DNA of 64,000 nucleotides, taken from positions 2,852,396-2,916,395 of the forward strand of contig CP091241.1 in NCBI GenBank assembly GCA_027627685.1, in the 5' to 3' direction. The translations under genes were made by a program, and so were the position numbers. Below the pieces are notes generated by a model, which did no database searches, was not told the DNA's origin, and saw nothing but the letters and a program-made list of their open reading frames with translations. This document shows positions 20,714 through 25,998 of this stretch, one piece after another; position 1 is the first letter of the stretch; each line of letters starts with the position of its first letter. This DNA is from Hyphomonadaceae bacterium ML37. GTDB lineage: Bacteria; Pseudomonadota; Alphaproteobacteria; Caulobacterales; Maricaulaceae.

Positions 20714-20844
20714 GGGCGGGGCCTTAACGTGGCGGCGCGCCTCACGCCAGCCTCTGCGGCGCCTTGAGCCGGGACGTCATGCAGGCTAAGTCCGGGTCTT
20801 CCAATCCGCCTGCCCTCCTTCCCGCCCTTTTTGAAAGGCCTCCC

Positions 20845-21849
20845 ATGTCCGAAACCCGCTTCGACGTCCTGGGCGTCGGCAACGCCATTGTCGACGTGCT
20901 CGCCCCCGTGGATGAGGCCTTCATCGAGGCCCACGGCCTGGTCAAGGACGCGATGATCCTCATCGACGAAGCGCGCGCCGATGCGCTCTATGCGGCCTTC
21001 CCCGAAGGCGAGGAAATCTCCGGCGGGTCAGCGGCCAACACGCTGGCGGGCGTCGCCAGCTTCGGGGCGCGCGGCGCCTATATCGGCAAGGTCGCTGATG
21101 ACGGGTTGGGCCAGACCTTCGCGCGCGACCTGCGCGCGGCGGGGGTTCATTTCGACACCGCGCCCTTAAGCGGCGGACCATCCACGGCGCGCTGCCTGAT
21201 CGCTGTGCCGCCTGATGCGCGCCGGGCGATGAACACCTATCTGGGCGCGTCCACCCTGCTGGACCCCGATGACATCGACCGCGATCTGGTCGCCGCCGCC
21301 CGCGTTGTGTTCCTGGAGGGCTATCTGTTCGACCGCGAGGAGGCCAAGGCCGCCTATGTGCGCGCGTCCGAGCTCGCCGCCGCCGCCGGCCGCGCCGTGG
21401 CCCTCACCCTGTCGGACATTTTCTGCGTGGAGCGCCACCGGGCAAGCTTCCGCCAGCTGGTGCGCCACCATGTGGACGTGTTGTTCGCCAACGAGGCTGA
21501 ACTGAAATCCCTCTACGAGACCGACAATTTCGACGAGGCCCTGGCCGCCGTGCGCGCCGAAACCCGCATCGCCGCCGTCACACGCTCTGAAAAAGGCGCC
21601 GTGATCGTGTCGGGACAGGAGGAGGCCCGCGTGCCGGCCACCAAAATCGAGCGCCTCGTGGACACGACGGGCGCCGGCGACCAGTTCGCCGCCGGCTTCC
21701 TCACCGGCTATGCACTGGGCCGCGATCTGGAGACCTGCGGACGCCTCGGCGTCATCGCCGCGGGCGAAGTCATCACCCATTTCGGCGCCCGCCCCCACGC
21801 CGACCTTAAGGATCTCGCCGCCAAGGCGGGGCTGTCGCTGGACCGGTAG
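20845..21849 (+). CDS. Adenosine kinase, PfkB family
   Basis: Ribokinase-fold sugar/nucleoside kinase of 334 residues. The N terminus 'FDVLGVGNAIVDVLAPV', the first PfkB signature region 'GGSAANTLAGVASFGARGAYIGKV' and the second signature 'DTTGAGDQFAAGFLTGYALG' with the catalytic Asp are all present. 'GNAIVDVLA' with 'GGSAANT' is typical of alphaproteobacterial proteins assigned as adenosine kinases. It would phosphorylate adenosine to AMP in purine salvage. The ATG at 20845 follows GAAAGG. A terminator follows at 21892. Confidence 0.88.
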   Translation: MSETRFDVLGVGNAIVDVLAPVDEAFIEAHGLVKDAMILIDEARADALYAAFPEGEEISGGSAANTLAGVASFGARGAYIGKVADDGLGQTFARDLRAAGVHFDTAPLSGGPSTARCLIAVPPDARRAMNTYLGASTLLDPDDIDRDLVAAARVVFLEGYLFDREEAKAAYVRASELAAAAGRAVALTLSDIFCVERHRASFRQLVRHHVDVLFANEAELKSLYETDNFDEALAAVRAETRIAAVTRSEKGAVIVSGQEEARVPATKIERLVDTTGAGDQFAAGFLTGYALGRDLETCGRLGVIAAGEVITHFGARPHADLKDLAAKAGLSLDR

Positions 21850-21891
21850 GCATCTGCCGGGCCAACACTATCGAACGTGGCTGAAGACGAG

Positions 21892-21930
21892 CCCGCGCCA
21901 ACGGTTCCGGCGCGGGTTTGTTGCTTTTGG
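21892..21930 (+). terminator. Rho-independent terminator after adenosine kinase
   Basis: CCCGCGCC (21892-21899) pairs with GGCGCGGG (21909-21916) around a 9-nt loop and is followed by TTTGTTGCTTTT. This is a typical intrinsic terminator 43 bp beyond the kinase stop. Confidence 0.85.
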
Positions 21931-21964
21931 CGTGGGCTGGTGGTTCGGCTTCCACCCCCGCCTC

Positions 21965-21980
21965 TGAGTAGTTTTACTCA
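21965..21980. promoter_or_regulatory. Inverted repeat TGAGTA-N4-TACTCA
   Basis: A perfect 6-bp inverted repeat separated by GTTT, about 130 bp upstream of the GGDEF-EAL gene, in an interval with a possible TATATT -10 box near 22030. The arrangement suits a dimeric regulator site controlling the c-di-GMP gene, but nothing identifies the factor. Confidence 0.35.
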
Positions 21981-22110
21981 TTGCCCCCGCCTGAATTCGG
22001 CTCAATGAACGGTTTCAGCCGCTTAACCCTATATTCAGCACAGCACGCAATGCTGTCCCCGTGGCAGGGTCTCGTCCGAAGACGGCCTGCAGGTGTGCTC
22101 GGGAGGGGAC

Positions 22111-24201
22111 ATGGCGCCGATCAGACATGCGATTTCACGCGTCATGCGTTCGCTGGTCATCAAGTTCACGCTGCTGTGCGGCCTGATCCTGATCCTCGCG
22201 ACGGCTGCCCTGATGAGCGTGGAGTACTACCTCAAGCGCGCTGAAAACACCGAAACCGGTCTGCAGCATGCACAGATCATCACCGAGCTGTTCGCCACCA
22301 CCCTCGCCCCGGCCATCGCCAGCGGCGATGCGGGCTTTCTGGTCACGCGCCTGGGCCAGTTCGCCGACCGCGCCGACGTGGACGGCATCTACGCCGTCAA
22401 TGTCAGCCGCATTGTGCTGGCGTCAGAGGGCGACGTGCCGGTCAATCCGGGCATGCGCGCCGCTGACGCGCTGATCCAGTCGGCGCTGGGCGCCGTGGAC
22501 ACGCGCGTCGAAACCATCGGTCAGGACATTCATGTCGCCGCGCCGGCCTTCCACGACGGCCGCCTGGTGGGGGCCATCGTCGTGGTGGTGCCGATCCAGG
22601 CCGTGGCGCGCCCCGCCGGCGAGATTCTGCGCCGCCAACTGCTCATTGCTCTGGGCGCGCTGCTGGTCTTCCTGCCGCTGGTGGCGCTGGTGGTGAGCCG
22701 CGCGCTGAGCCCCATGCGCAAGCTGATCGAGGCGGCCCGCGCCGCATCCTCGCGCAATCTGGACATCCGCATCGATATCCGCACCGGCGACGAGCTGGAA
22801 TTGCTGGCCAATGCCTTCAACCGCATGTTCGCGCGCCTGGAAGCCAGCGTGAAGCGCGTCCATCGCCTGGCCTATGTGGACATGATCACCGAGCTGCCCA
22901 ACCGCGAACGCTTCCGCAAGGAAGTCGAGCGCGTCACCCGCGAAGCCGCGGACGGTCAGGAGGGCGCAGTGCTCTTCCTCGATCTCGACCGGTTCAAGCG
23001 GGTCAATGACTCACTCGGCATCGGCGAAGGCGACCGGCTGCTGGACGCCGTGGCGCGCCGGCTGCGCGAAGCGGCCCGCGGCTGGGATCTCGCCCATGGC
23101 GAAGGCGGCTCCGAGCCGTCCATGGTGGCGCGCCTGGGCGGAGACGAGTTCACGGTGCTGCTGCCCAAGGTGAACGATCCGGCCGACGCGGCGCGCCTGG
23201 CCCGCCGGATCATCGATTCGGTGCGCCGCCCGTTCGAGATTTCCGGCCATCAGGTCTTCCTGGGCCTGTCGGCGGGCATCGCCCTGTTCCCGCGCGACGG
23301 CGACGATCCCGAGACCCTGCTGCGCCACGCCGACCTCGCCATGGCCGCGGCCAAGCGCAGCGGCGGCAATGCGTATGAATATTTCGAAGCCTCCATGAAC
23401 CGCAGCGCGTTTGAGCGCCTGGTGCTGGAGAACGAGCTGCGCGAGGCCGTGCGTGACGACCAGCTGGTGGTGTTCTACCAGCCCAAGATCAGCTTTGCTG
23501 ACGGGTCCATTGCGGGCTCCGAAGCGCTGGTGCGCTGGCGCCACCCCACCGCCGGCATGTTGGCGCCGGGCGCGTTCATTCAGGCCGCCGAGGAATGCGG
23601 GCTGATCGGTGAGATTGGCGACTGGGTGCTGCGCCGCGCCTGCCGCGACGCCCAGGCCCTGCGCGCCAGCGGCCTGACCAAGCCGGTGGCGGTCAATGTC
23701 TCGGCCATGCAGTTCGAGAGCGAAAACTTCGCCAGAAGCGTGATGGATGCGCTGGAGGAATCCGGCCTGCCGCCCGAGCTCCTGGAACTGGAGCTGACTG
23801 AATCCACCGCCATGCGCGATCCCGAGCGGGTCATCGCGCAGATCGCGCCGCTGCGCGAGATGGGCGTGACCTTCGCCATCGACGATTTCGGCACCGGCCA
23901 TTCCAGCCTGTCCTATCTGACCCGCATGCCGTTCGACGTGTTCAAGATCGACCAGAGCTTCGTGCGCAACATGATGGATGACGAGCATGCGCGCATCGTG
24001 GTCGAGACGATTCTGGCCATGGCCCGCTCGCTGAAGCTCAAGACCGTCGCTGAAGGCGTTGAAACCGCAGAGCAATATGCCGCACTGCGCGATCTGGGCG
24101 CCACGCTGGCCCAGGGCTACCTGTTCGCGCGGCCCATGCCTCTGGACGAGTTCGAACGCTTCTCCGCACCCGGCGCCAAAGCGGCCCGGATCGCCGGCTA
24201 G
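22111..24201 (+). CDS. Membrane-bound GGDEF-EAL cyclic-di-GMP enzyme
   Basis: A 696-residue bifunctional c-di-GMP protein. TM1 lies near residues 12-33, followed by a periplasmic sensor segment of about 140 residues, TM2 near 175-200 ('LLIALGALLVFLPLVALVV'), HAMP, then GGDEF and EAL. The cyclase signature 'RLGGDEFTVLL' (about residue 344) and the phosphodiesterase signature 'GSEALVRWRHP' (about residue 470), with 'DDFGTGHSSLSYL' and 'KIDQSFVRNM', are all intact, so both activities are possible. The ATG at 22111 with GGGAGGGG is preferred over a GTG at 22093. It is monocistronic, after a terminator. Confidence 0.95.
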   Translation: MAPIRHAISRVMRSLVIKFTLLCGLILILATAALMSVEYYLKRAENTETGLQHAQIITELFATTLAPAIASGDAGFLVTRLGQFADRADVDGIYAVNVSRIVLASEGDVPVNPGMRAADALIQSALGAVDTRVETIGQDIHVAAPAFHDGRLVGAIVVVVPIQAVARPAGEILRRQLLIALGALLVFLPLVALVVSRALSPMRKLIEAARAASSRNLDIRIDIRTGDELELLANAFNRMFARLEASVKRVHRLAYVDMITELPNRERFRKEVERVTREAADGQEGAVLFLDLDRFKRVNDSLGIGEGDRLLDAVARRLREAARGWDLAHGEGGSEPSMVARLGGDEFTVLLPKVNDPADAARLARRIIDSVRRPFEISGHQVFLGLSAGIALFPRDGDDPETLLRHADLAMAAAKRSGGNAYEYFEASMNRSAFERLVLENELREAVRDDQLVVFYQPKISFADGSIAGSEALVRWRHPTAGMLAPGAFIQAAEECGLIGEIGDWVLRRACRDAQALRASGLTKPVAVNVSAMQFESENFARSVMDALEESGLPPELLELELTESTAMRDPERVIAQIAPLREMGVTFAIDDFGTGHSSLSYLTRMPFDVFKIDQSFVRNMMDDEHARIVVETILAMARSLKLKTVAEGVETAEQYAALRDLGATLAQGYLFARPMPLDEFERFSAPGAKAARIAG

Positions 24202-24239
24202 GCTGGCCGACAGGACACGGGGCGGCTGCAGCGCCGCCG

Positions 24240-24271
24240 ATTTGGATGTGCTATTTCAGCAACATCCAAAT
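24240..24271 (+). terminator. AT-rich stem-loop after the GGDEF-EAL gene
   Basis: ATTTGGATG (24240-24248) pairs with CATCCAAAT (24263-24271), with an inner TGCT/AGCA helix, one bulged A and an ATTTC loop. It lies 38 bp after the stop codon and is followed by TCTTTCTC, a weak pyrimidine tract. It could be a terminator readable from either side, or a regulatory hairpin. It opens a 353-bp gene-free interval (24202-24554), whose other contents are listed in the next entry. Confidence 0.5.
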
Positions 24272-24345
24272 TCTTTCTCGAATTTAATTGAACAAACCTC
24301 GTCAGTTGTGGCACATTTGCACGTGCGGACCTCAAACGGACCGCT

Positions 24346-24470
24346 CCTGGCGCCAACGTCCCCCCGCGTGCGTCGCCAGGCTTCAAGCCGGAACCCCTCC
24401 CGGCCACGACCTCGCACCCTCACCCCAGGGTGCGACAGCAGCGCCCGGCGGTTCCCCAGCCGCCGGGCGC
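24346..24470 (+). ncRNA. Candidate structured RNA with four C-rich hairpin loops
   Basis: Four consecutive perfect inverted repeats occupy this part of a gene-free 353-bp gap. H1 is CCTGGCG/CGCCAGG (24346-24380) with a 21-nt loop holding C6. H2 is GCCGG/CCGGC (24387-24404) with loop AACCCCTC. H3 is TCGCACCC/GGGTGCGA (24412-24435) with loop TCACCCCA. H4 is GCGCCCGGCGG/CCGCCGGGCGC (24441-24470) with loop TTCCCCAG. Three loops are exactly 8 nt with a central CCCC. C-rich loops are a hallmark of small RNAs that pair with G-rich ribosome binding sites. Alternatives are a structured leader for the gene at 24555, or an RNA from the other strand with GGGG loops. No clear promoter is visible. Confidence 0.45.
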
Positions 24471-24554
24471 GCATTGTCTGGCGCCATCTGCGAAACCAAC
24501 CTCATCTGTCAAACCGGTTCCCGGCGCCCATCAAAACGCGCTAGAACCCCCGGC

Positions 24555-25169
24555 ATGACCGATCCCCATGCCCGTGGCGGCGGCGAAGACGAAATCGCCC
24601 GCCTGCTTGATGAAATCCCGCTTCTGTTCAAGGCGCGCGCGTTCGCCGAGTCGCTCAATGACCCGGCCTTCTTCTCGCGTCTGGGCGAGCGGCTGGACAG
24701 CCGCGAACTGGCGCTGGCGCGCGCCTATCTGGACGGGCTGGGTTTTCCCGAGGCTGAACCGGCGCTTCTGGGCGACTGGGCCGACGCTGCGGGCGTGGCC
24801 GAGACGCTGGACCAGAACCCGGCCGCCTGGGAGGCCGAGGAAATGCTGCGCGCCGCCCTGACCGGTCAGGTGCTTGAGCGCCTCGACGAAGAGGCGGTCA
24901 ATGCCGCGTTCTCGCTGGTGCAGGCGCGCATCGCCGACCATGCCCGCGAAGCTGCCGAGGCCAGCGCCGCCATGGACGATGTCTATGACGAGGACGTCGT
25001 GAACGCCGCCGCCGGAGGGCTCATCCAGGCCGCCCACGGCGCCGTGCTGGTCCTGCTGGCCGAGGCTGAAGACGACCAGCCGCCGCATCCGTTTCTGGCG
25101 CGCTGGCGGCTCTATGTGCGCGGGCGCTGGCCGGTGGCGGTGTCGGGCGCCAGCTACAACATTCTGTGA
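24555..25169 (+). CDS. Hypothetical acidic alpha-helical protein
   Basis: A 204-residue, strongly acidic, alanine-rich protein ('EDEIARLLDEIPLLFKARAFAESL', 'YDEDVVNAAAGGLIQAAHGAVLVLLAEAEDDQPPHPF') with predicted helices and no signal peptide. No family is recognised. The ATG at 24555 starts after the structured interval; the same frame upstream reads through the hairpins and is not credible as protein. It is followed 19 bp later by exonuclease III and may be cotranscribed with it. Confidence 0.75.
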   Translation: MTDPHARGGGEDEIARLLDEIPLLFKARAFAESLNDPAFFSRLGERLDSRELALARAYLDGLGFPEAEPALLGDWADAAGVAETLDQNPAAWEAEEMLRAALTGQVLERLDEEAVNAAFSLVQARIADHAREAAEASAAMDDVYDEDVVNAAAGGLIQAAHGAVLVLLAEAEDDQPPHPFLARWRLYVRGRWPVAVSGASYNIL

Positions 25170-25188
25170 ACGCGAAAGGGACGGGCTC

Positions 25189-25998
25189 ATGCGCGCGCTG
25201 ACACTGGCGACGTGGAACATCAATTCGGTGCGGCTGCGCGCGCCCCAGATCGCCCGTTTCGCCGCCGAGGCGTCGCCCGACATTATCTGCCTGCAGGAGA
25301 TCAAATGCCTGGAGGATCAATTCCCCTACGCCGCCTTCGCCGACATGGGCTATCCCCACGCCGCCGTCACCGGCCAGAAGGGCATGCACGGGGTGGCCGT
25401 GGTCTCACGCCTGCCGATCGAGGCGCTGGAGCCCCACAAAGTCTGCCCCAAGGCTGAAGCGCGCTATCAGCGTGTGAAGGTGGACGGGATGGAAATCCTC
25501 AATTTCTACATCCCCGCCGGCGGCGACGAGCCGGATGCGGACATCAATCCGCGCTTCCGCCACAAGCTGGATTTTCTTGCGGCGCTGGAATCCTATCTGG
25601 CCGGCCGGCGCAGCGAGCCCGGCGCACGCGTTCTGGTCGGCGATCTCAACATCGCGCCGCTGGAGCATGATGTCTGGTCGCACAAACAATTGCTCAACGT
25701 GATCTCCCACACGCCGGTGGAGACCGAGGCGCTCGAACGCATCCGCATCTCCGGCGGGTTCGCCGACGCGCCCCGCGCTCTCGTGCCCGAGCCGGAGAAG
25801 CTGTTCACCTGGTGGAGCTACCGCAATCGCGACTGGCGCGTTTCCAATCGCGGCCGGCGGCTGGATCATATCTGGGTCAATGGCGATCTGGAGGCGGCGG
25901 CAATGTCGCCGGGCCGCGCGGGCTTCAAGGTCTGGGAAGACTGCCGCGACTGGGACAAGCCCTCAGACCACGCCCCGGTGACGCTGGACCTGCGCTAG
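25189..25998 (+). CDS. xth: Exodeoxyribonuclease III
   Basis: AP endonuclease and 3'-5' exonuclease of base-excision repair, in the EEP superfamily. Recognisable motifs are 'LATWNINSVRLR', 'CLQEIKCLEDQFP', 'VLVGDLNIAPLEHDVW' and the C-terminal 'WDKPSDHAPVTLDL', supplying the Asn, Glu, Asp-Asn and Asp-His catalytic residues. Length (269 aa) is typical. The ATG at 25189 matches the family start. The stop overlaps the stop of the convergent acetyltransferase gene by 4 bp. Confidence 0.95.
   Translation: MRALTLATWNINSVRLRAPQIARFAAEASPDIICLQEIKCLEDQFPYAAFADMGYPHAAVTGQKGMHGVAVVSRLPIEALEPHKVCPKAEARYQRVKVDGMEILNFYIPAGGDEPDADINPRFRHKLDFLAALESYLAGRRSEPGARVLVGDLNIAPLEHDVWSHKQLLNVISHTPVETEALERIRISGGFADAPRALVPEPEKLFTWWSYRNRDWRVSNRGRRLDHIWVNGDLEAAAMSPGRAGFKVWEDCRDWDKPSDHAPVTLDLR

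Follow-up and report, generated by a model that had tools for sequence, protein, structure and literature searches.

A run of tandem hairpins with C-rich loops in the genome of Hyphomonadaceae bacterium ML37, within the 64,000-nucleotide stretch of DNA analysed here (the window), is, judged by comparative evidence, a real, conserved small RNA gene. It is very probably the ortholog of RusT (CCNA_R0199) of Caulobacter crescentus, a free-standing gene whose RNA would act in trans. The comparison of genomes shows homology in a structure-based search, together with covariation, a locus held in common, a single copy per genome in nearly all cases, and conservation of the region upstream. The identification with RusT is based on where the RNA lies, how long it is and where its seed is placed, and is the weakest link of the ortholog reading.

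Fold and covariation of the hairpins

An earlier note on this DNA had placed four perfect stems in a gene-free gap of 353 bp. The gap has this length (24202-24554), bounded by the stop of a GGDEF-EAL gene at 24201 and by the ATG of the next gene at 24555. Four C-loop hairpins, H1-H4, fill a stretch of 125 nt on the plus strand (24346-24470), and a fifth, H0, overlooked in the note, precedes them; comparable 5' hairpins appear in single-sequence folds of several relatives (Table 1).

Table 1. Features of the RNA locus in the window (positions counted from the first letter of the window)
Feature	Position	Strand	Remarks
GGDEF-EAL gene, upstream of RNA	22093..24201	+	Pfam HAMP, GGDEF, EAL; occupies the lolA place of many relatives (synteny)
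Dyad-like element TGTG-N10-CAC-NN-GCAA	24247..24269	+	window copy with two mismatches; candidate NtrX site by position
AT-rich conserved block CTTTCTCGAATTTAATTGAAC, putative upstream promoter part	24273..24293	+	15 aligned gaps (L004 diverging); modified form family-wide
TGTGGCACATTTGCAC, putative -10 region just 5' of the transcript	24307..24322	+	conserved block
H0, 5' hairpin	24325..24344	+	predicted 5' end of RNA; fold z -2.7
H1, C6-loop hairpin	24346..24380	+	stem interrupted by internal loops; loop CCCCCC at 24360-24365
H2, loop AACCCCUC	24387..24404	+	5 bp, 8-nt loop; counterpart of RusT seed stem-loop
H3, lineage-specific hairpin	24412..24435	+	9 bp, loop CACCCC; fold z -5.0
H4, terminator position	24441..24470	+	11 G-C pairs around loop UUCCCCAG
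204-aa conserved protein, between RNA and xth	24555..25169	+	conserved; without family
xth, exodeoxyribonuclease III	25186..25998	+	Pfam PF03372; NCBIfam TIGR00633 above cut-off

The 125-nt stretch folds with -70.5 kcal/mol, against -48.7 +/- 3.5 kcal/mol for 200 dinucleotide shuffles, none of which was as low (z -6.2), a fold beyond chance expectation. With flanks included, the z-score was -6.5 on the plus strand and -2.7 on the minus strand. H2 by itself is modest (z -2.4, with 8 of the 200 shuffles equally low). All four hairpins fold and the first carries the C6 loop that the note had described, but the stem of H1 is not perfect. Similarly, only one of the three loops given as exactly 8 nt, that of H2, has this size in the minimum-energy fold: the loop of H3 has 6 nt, reaching 8 nt when the last pair is open, and two further weak pairs narrow that of H4 to CCCC.

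At the DNA level the gap was matched in 15 of 61 genomes, the window's own included. When these 15 gaps, two of them identical (L002 and L086), were aligned with their flanks, an upstream block was conserved, with L004 diverging, the stems changed in step, and CGTCCCCC was present in all 15. A wider alignment, A1, was assembled from the window's family. The first regular-expression search for C-runs left out 14 of 47 distinct upstream regions, true members among them: L110 and L113 were restored, L006 is cut by a contig end, and the covariance model R2 later detected the RNA at E <= 0.001 in L012-L015, L020, L021, L031, L033 and L035, while L010 and L044 gave no R2 match at E <= 1. With L008 and L009 left out for their cut 5' ends, A1 comprised 33 sequences. 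RNAalifold applied to the plain MAFFT alignment A1 recovered H4 and part of H2, with two-sided changes in 10 of 15 pairs, and did not recover H1, which is out of register in A1; the columns of its stem were set by hand from pairing statistics.

In an alignment of 69 model-aligned hits (65 distinct), which is fitted to the structure and hence biased towards it, 93.6% of pair cells held standard pairs, compared with 78.3% in shuffles. Among the 65 distinct rows, two-sided changes occurred in 22 of 25 pairs (13.4 in shuffles), and covariation was 0.415, compared with 0.155 in shuffled and at most 0.114 in slid controls. Two-sided changes affect 6/6 modelled pairs of the H1 stem, where 86.7% of cells are paired, 6/7 of the H2 stem and 10/12 pairs of the H4 stem. 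Loop C-runs were found in 67/69 hits for H1 (C5+), 67/69 for H2 (C4+) and 53/69 for H4 (C4+); the models reward C-runs, so these counts are not independent of hit finding. The C-loop of H3 is present in many, not all, loci of the window's genus, and L004 lacks it.

These data supply the compensatory stem changes by which the earlier note proposed to check its reading, and the loss of stem pairing in close relatives that would have spoken against it was looked for and not found. Conservation of the CCCC loops holds for H1 and H2 and does not extend to H3 and H4, whose loops differ between lineages. Together, the compensatory changes and the C-runs in the H1 and H2 loops support a regulatory RNA with C-rich loops. 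There is next to no chance that the hairpins are accidental stems of a high-GC gap: the GC content of the region (73-77%) would favour such stems, but the fold energy lies far below that of the shuffles and covariation exceeds both kinds of control.

A scan of 24100-24700 called no terminator, and the U-run that follows H4 in many relatives is almost absent in the window copy. In several relatives from other families, H4 loops without C are followed by a U-run; for this reason we take H4 to be the terminator, with a C-loop that is not a fixed feature.

Locus, distribution and relation to RusT

RusT was described as a separate transcript of 118 nt between lolA and xth, with four stem-loops of which the last is the terminator hairpin, Hfq acting at stem-loop 3, and a conserved seed at nt 45-57 that includes C53 (PMC11005374). 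Iron chelation and zinc induce it, it represses TonB receptors and OmpW, and homologs were described from Caulobacteraceae close to C. crescentus (PMC11005374). In our material, lolA lies near the RNA in 31 of 41 loci examined, usually just upstream, and all five of the LolA proteins tested were confirmed by Pfam. Wherever coordinates were compared, the order was lolA-RNA-xth, with or without the gene for the 204-aa protein before xth; the named relatives with lolA-RNA-xth include Maricaulis (L007, L011) and Brevundimonas (L050, RNA match E 0.0014). For the protein itself, neither Pfam (E <= 0.001) nor NCBIfam (E <= 0.01) yielded a match; it is conserved beside the RNA, with a match in 52/119 family genomes.

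The window retains the xth side of this arrangement, with one small gene between, and has the EAL gene in place of lolA. The EAL gene is found upstream of the RNA in the window's genus, to which Oceanicaulis HTCC2633 and Alkalicaulis satelles belong as well (identical 330-nt stretches), and three further genera have loci with this arrangement (L105, L110, L119 and similar); Maricaulis and others have lolA at this place, and in Woodsholea (L003) neither was seen. A pair of genes, for a PfkB kinase and the GGDEF-EAL protein (20764-24201), stands where many relatives have lolA.

These exchanges bear on whether the hairpins could be a cis element, either as the 3' UTR of the gene before them or as a leader or attenuator for one of the genes behind them (the 204-aa gene or xth). 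In favour of this, the next gene downstream has the same orientation as the RNA, whose last hairpin resembles a terminator. However, the RNA stays while the upstream gene (EAL or lolA) and the downstream gene (204-aa or xth) change, and that it keeps its place through the lolA/EAL swap argues against a UTR. Moreover, the RNA is preceded by a conserved region of its own, the last hairpin has a U-run behind it in many relatives, and RusT is a separate transcript in Caulobacter (PMC11005374). We therefore regard a cis element as unlikely and retain the reading as a stand-alone RusT ortholog.

A Caulobacter-like genome (L195) provides the closest comparison with RusT itself. The hit there is 118 nt long, lies between lolA and xth, and shows CCCCUCC from hit nt 54; C53 of RusT falls within this C-run if the hit start is off by 1-4 nt. 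A chain of searches with the models R1 and R2 connects the window's family to Caulobacteraceae-type genomes, along which the C-rich seed stem-loop and the terminal hairpin are kept. R1 is a covariance model whose 33 seed sequences come from the window's family. Searching the order without recourse to synteny, it detected the RNA at E <= 0.001 in 140 of 348 genomes and 26 of 55 genera; 45 of the positives belong to the window's family and 95 to four further families. Copy number is nearly always one (two genomes have two matches), and the window's genome has a single copy, its next best match reaching E 0.73.

Family f3 (119 genomes), which we took for Caulobacteraceae, yielded one genome with R1 and 57/119 with R2 at E <= 0.1, of which 32 at E <= 0.001. 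CCCCU[CG]C is present in 12 of 13 f3 loci, preceded by C5+ in 2 of 13 (L186 left out). Four named loci, from one Caulobacteraceae bacterium and three Brevundimonas, have AUCCCCU (4/4), exact CCCCUCC in one case (1/4) and C5+ before AUCCCCU in none (0/4). Since the H2 motif is kept in these loci and the preceding C-run is mostly absent, H2 is, from the sequences compared, the common core of the family, and the C-loop of H1 is largely absent in the Caulobacteraceae-type family. One f3 genome has a candidate RNA with a C7 loop (L185:1501-1640) that lolA and xth do not adjoin.

Within the class, R2 was positive in 32 of 385 genomes at E <= 0.001, including the genome of the window and a second one from its order; within the phylum, all ten positives among 299 genomes belong to the class, five of these to the order. 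Thirty of the 32 class-level loci were recovered. In 22 of the 29 besides the window, one of them (L248) from the window's order, lolA and/or xth adjoins the RNA, and since the R2 search did not use synteny, this is independent support. The remaining seven (L245, L246, L249, L252, L253, L255, L256), with neither gene adjoining, may be true or false and were given no weight. Among the 28 class loci outside the order, 18 carry C6+ within the first 45 nt, compared with ~3% expected at 66% GC, in a search whose model favours C-runs. When 71 xth loci were found by protein, R2 was positive in 21 at E <= 0.001, some of these being the same genomes as R2 seed rows. Two contigs filed as Hydrogenophilaceae and Proteobacteria (L019, L064) contain the lolA-RNA-xth block; they look alphaproteobacterial, and misbinning or a wrong label is possible.

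At the gathering score of Rfam, the RNA had no match in the window, where only tRNA was found elsewhere, or in 23 related loci; relaxed thresholds gave only sub-gathering matches in the window, such as PtaRNA1, which we took as chance. The RNA family, without an Rfam match, extends in these searches to other alphaproteobacterial families, more widely than the RusT paper (PMC11005374) reports in its account of homologs. This extension is new here, as is the predicted first hairpin with a C5-8 loop outside Caulobacteraceae-type genomes.

Upstream region and candidate targets

The dyad-like element is a pattern derived from these same upstream sequences. Allowing up to two mismatches, 55 of the 88 distinct regions contain it (57/91 including duplicates), as do 1.9% of two-base-block shuffles at the same stringency. 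Among 12 class loci from other orders, 2 have it, so that it chiefly characterises the window's order. In Caulobacter the promoter of rusT is occupied by NtrX (PMC11005374), and on this analogy the element may be an NtrX site; the portions of PMC11005374 used here give no NtrX motif for comparison. The window's genome contains ntrY and ntrX, with hfq ~3 kb further on. A simple scan of 24100-24700 for the sigma-70 consensus gave no matches. A sigma-54 reading of TGTGGCAC, made by eye, was dropped when its spacing to the GC element proved not to be conserved.

On the target side, GGGG was found at -20 to -3 in 15 of 25 TonB-receptor genes of the window's genome, compared with 29 of 170 other ORFs (odds ratio 7.3, p 1.4e-5). 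The receptor set comprises 25 of 26 Plug matches, one below the cut-off being left out, and the controls are counted after removal of one TonB receptor in the window (30/171 before). This test was post hoc in the first genome, prompted by a list of duplex energies, with several patterns tried and starts chosen by a rough rule; a start-choice rule ignoring G-runs gave 15/25 versus 21/170. When the comparison was repeated in another genome of the family (G127), the signal was weaker, with GGGG in 10/27 versus 29/129 (p 0.09) and GGGGA in 9/27 versus 16/129 (p 0.012), and the rule ignoring G-runs gave 10/27 versus 20/129 for GGGG (p 0.014). Receptor leaders paired better with the loop segments of H1 (p 0.042) and H2 (p 0.014), and no better with the H3 loop (p 0.21) or a made-up control (p 0.94). 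Loop-to-leader duplex energies were weak against ORFs of the window. The GGGG enrichment backs a reading of G-rich targets, in a supportive role only. TonB-receptor start regions are GGGG-rich (L203-L227, L275-L301), with the stronger signal in the window's genome.

The C-rich loops might instead act as a sponge, titrating G/A-rich small RNAs without repressing mRNAs. There is a precedent in Caulobacter, where CrfA, a G/A-rich stem-loop RNA, binds and inactivates SisA-D via their UUUCCUCCCU core (PMC12559287), and C-rich loops could meet a CrfA-like RNA. RusT together with Hfq, however, acts on mRNAs (PMC11005374), and we consider a sponge quite unlikely; repression of mRNAs through their G-rich start regions is the action that we propose for the RusT ortholog.

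Proposed action and comparison with known RNAs

We propose that an RNA of ~150 nt would be transcribed from about 24320-24478 on the plus strand (ends approximate), from its own promoter and probably under NtrX, and that H4 would end the transcript. Aided by Hfq, the C-rich H1 loop (CCCCCC) and H2 loop (CCCCUC) would pair with G-rich ribosome-binding regions. The main targets would be mRNAs of TonB-dependent receptors, whose translation would be blocked when the iron supply is disturbed. The RNA is best explained as a RusT ortholog whose C6-loop hairpin is either added or ancestral. A bolder proposal, for and against which we see the case as evenly balanced, is that RusT is far older than reported, across several alphaproteobacterial families, and that its original form was two-handed. 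The hairpins with the C5-8 loop and the UCCCCUCC loop would then each serve as a seed of its own on mRNAs of outer-membrane receptors, at their G-rich start regions, and Caulobacteraceae would have lost the first hand.

RusT ties NtrYX, iron stress and the outer membrane together in one model species, and a family common to much of Caulobacterales and beyond would make this a comparative system. If the family is so widely shared, the kept loop, the C5-8 loop missing in Caulobacteraceae-type genomes and the GGGG receptor starts would translate into testable target rules. The family would also close an Rfam gap and supply a model to genome annotators.

The earlier note had named Caulobacter GsrN as an analogue. 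A GsrN-type RNA would be a general-stress small RNA under EcfG that has a C6 loop and activates katG. GsrN pairs with G-rich targets through a 5' loop of six cytosines and ends in an intrinsic terminator (PMC5869019); the window RNA resembles it in a C6 loop towards the 5' end, in its predicted G-rich targets and in its putative terminator. They differ in the EcfG promoter of GsrN and, in most species, its neighbourhood to the GSR locus, C. crescentus itself being an exception to this proximity (PMC5869019). The neighbours in the window are the EAL gene, the 204-aa gene and xth, not ecfG, nepR or phyR, and the EcfG pattern GGAAC-N15-18-CGTT had no exact match there. The window's genome also gave no NepR (PF18557) match, a weak argument, since only 4 of 8 genomes searched matched (3 of the 7 others missed); its general stress system may have diverged or may be missing. 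GsrN-like genes with an EcfG motif and a C7 loop occur in two Brevundimonas genomes (L181:12470, plus strand; L182:11196, minus strand), so that a long C-loop is shared with GsrN-like genes. Nevertheless, in these same two genomes, those of L040 and L050, such a gene, with its EcfG motif, adjoins the GSR locus, and the present RNA occurs separately, flanked by lolA and xth (at a distance of ~1.1 kb from xth, on its upstream side, in L040; RNA match E 0.0014 in L050). A GsrN-type identity is thus very unlikely: GsrN is not the relative, and RusT is the closest known RNA.

Alpha-R8 and SisA-D resemble the window RNA in a C/U-rich stretch that pairs with start regions and in being bound by Hfq, and differ in their single-stranded UUUCCUCCCU core and in having four siblings in Caulobacter (PMC12559287). 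This core, shared by alpha-R8 and SisA, had no exact match in the window. The Cuckoo and CcsR RNAs of Rhodobacter carry C-rich anti-SD motifs in hairpin loops, as the window RNA carries C-rich loops, whereas their loci differ. RusT shares with the window's RNA family the lolA-RNA-xth type of locus, the seed stem-loop, further stem-loops and the terminator hairpin in last place, and its context is matched in single copy, an upstream element and the hfq and ntrYX genes. The window RNA exceeds RusT in length and differs from it in the C6-loop hairpin that precedes the seed hairpin, in the C-rich H3 and H4 loops, and in lying downstream of an EAL gene, not lolA.
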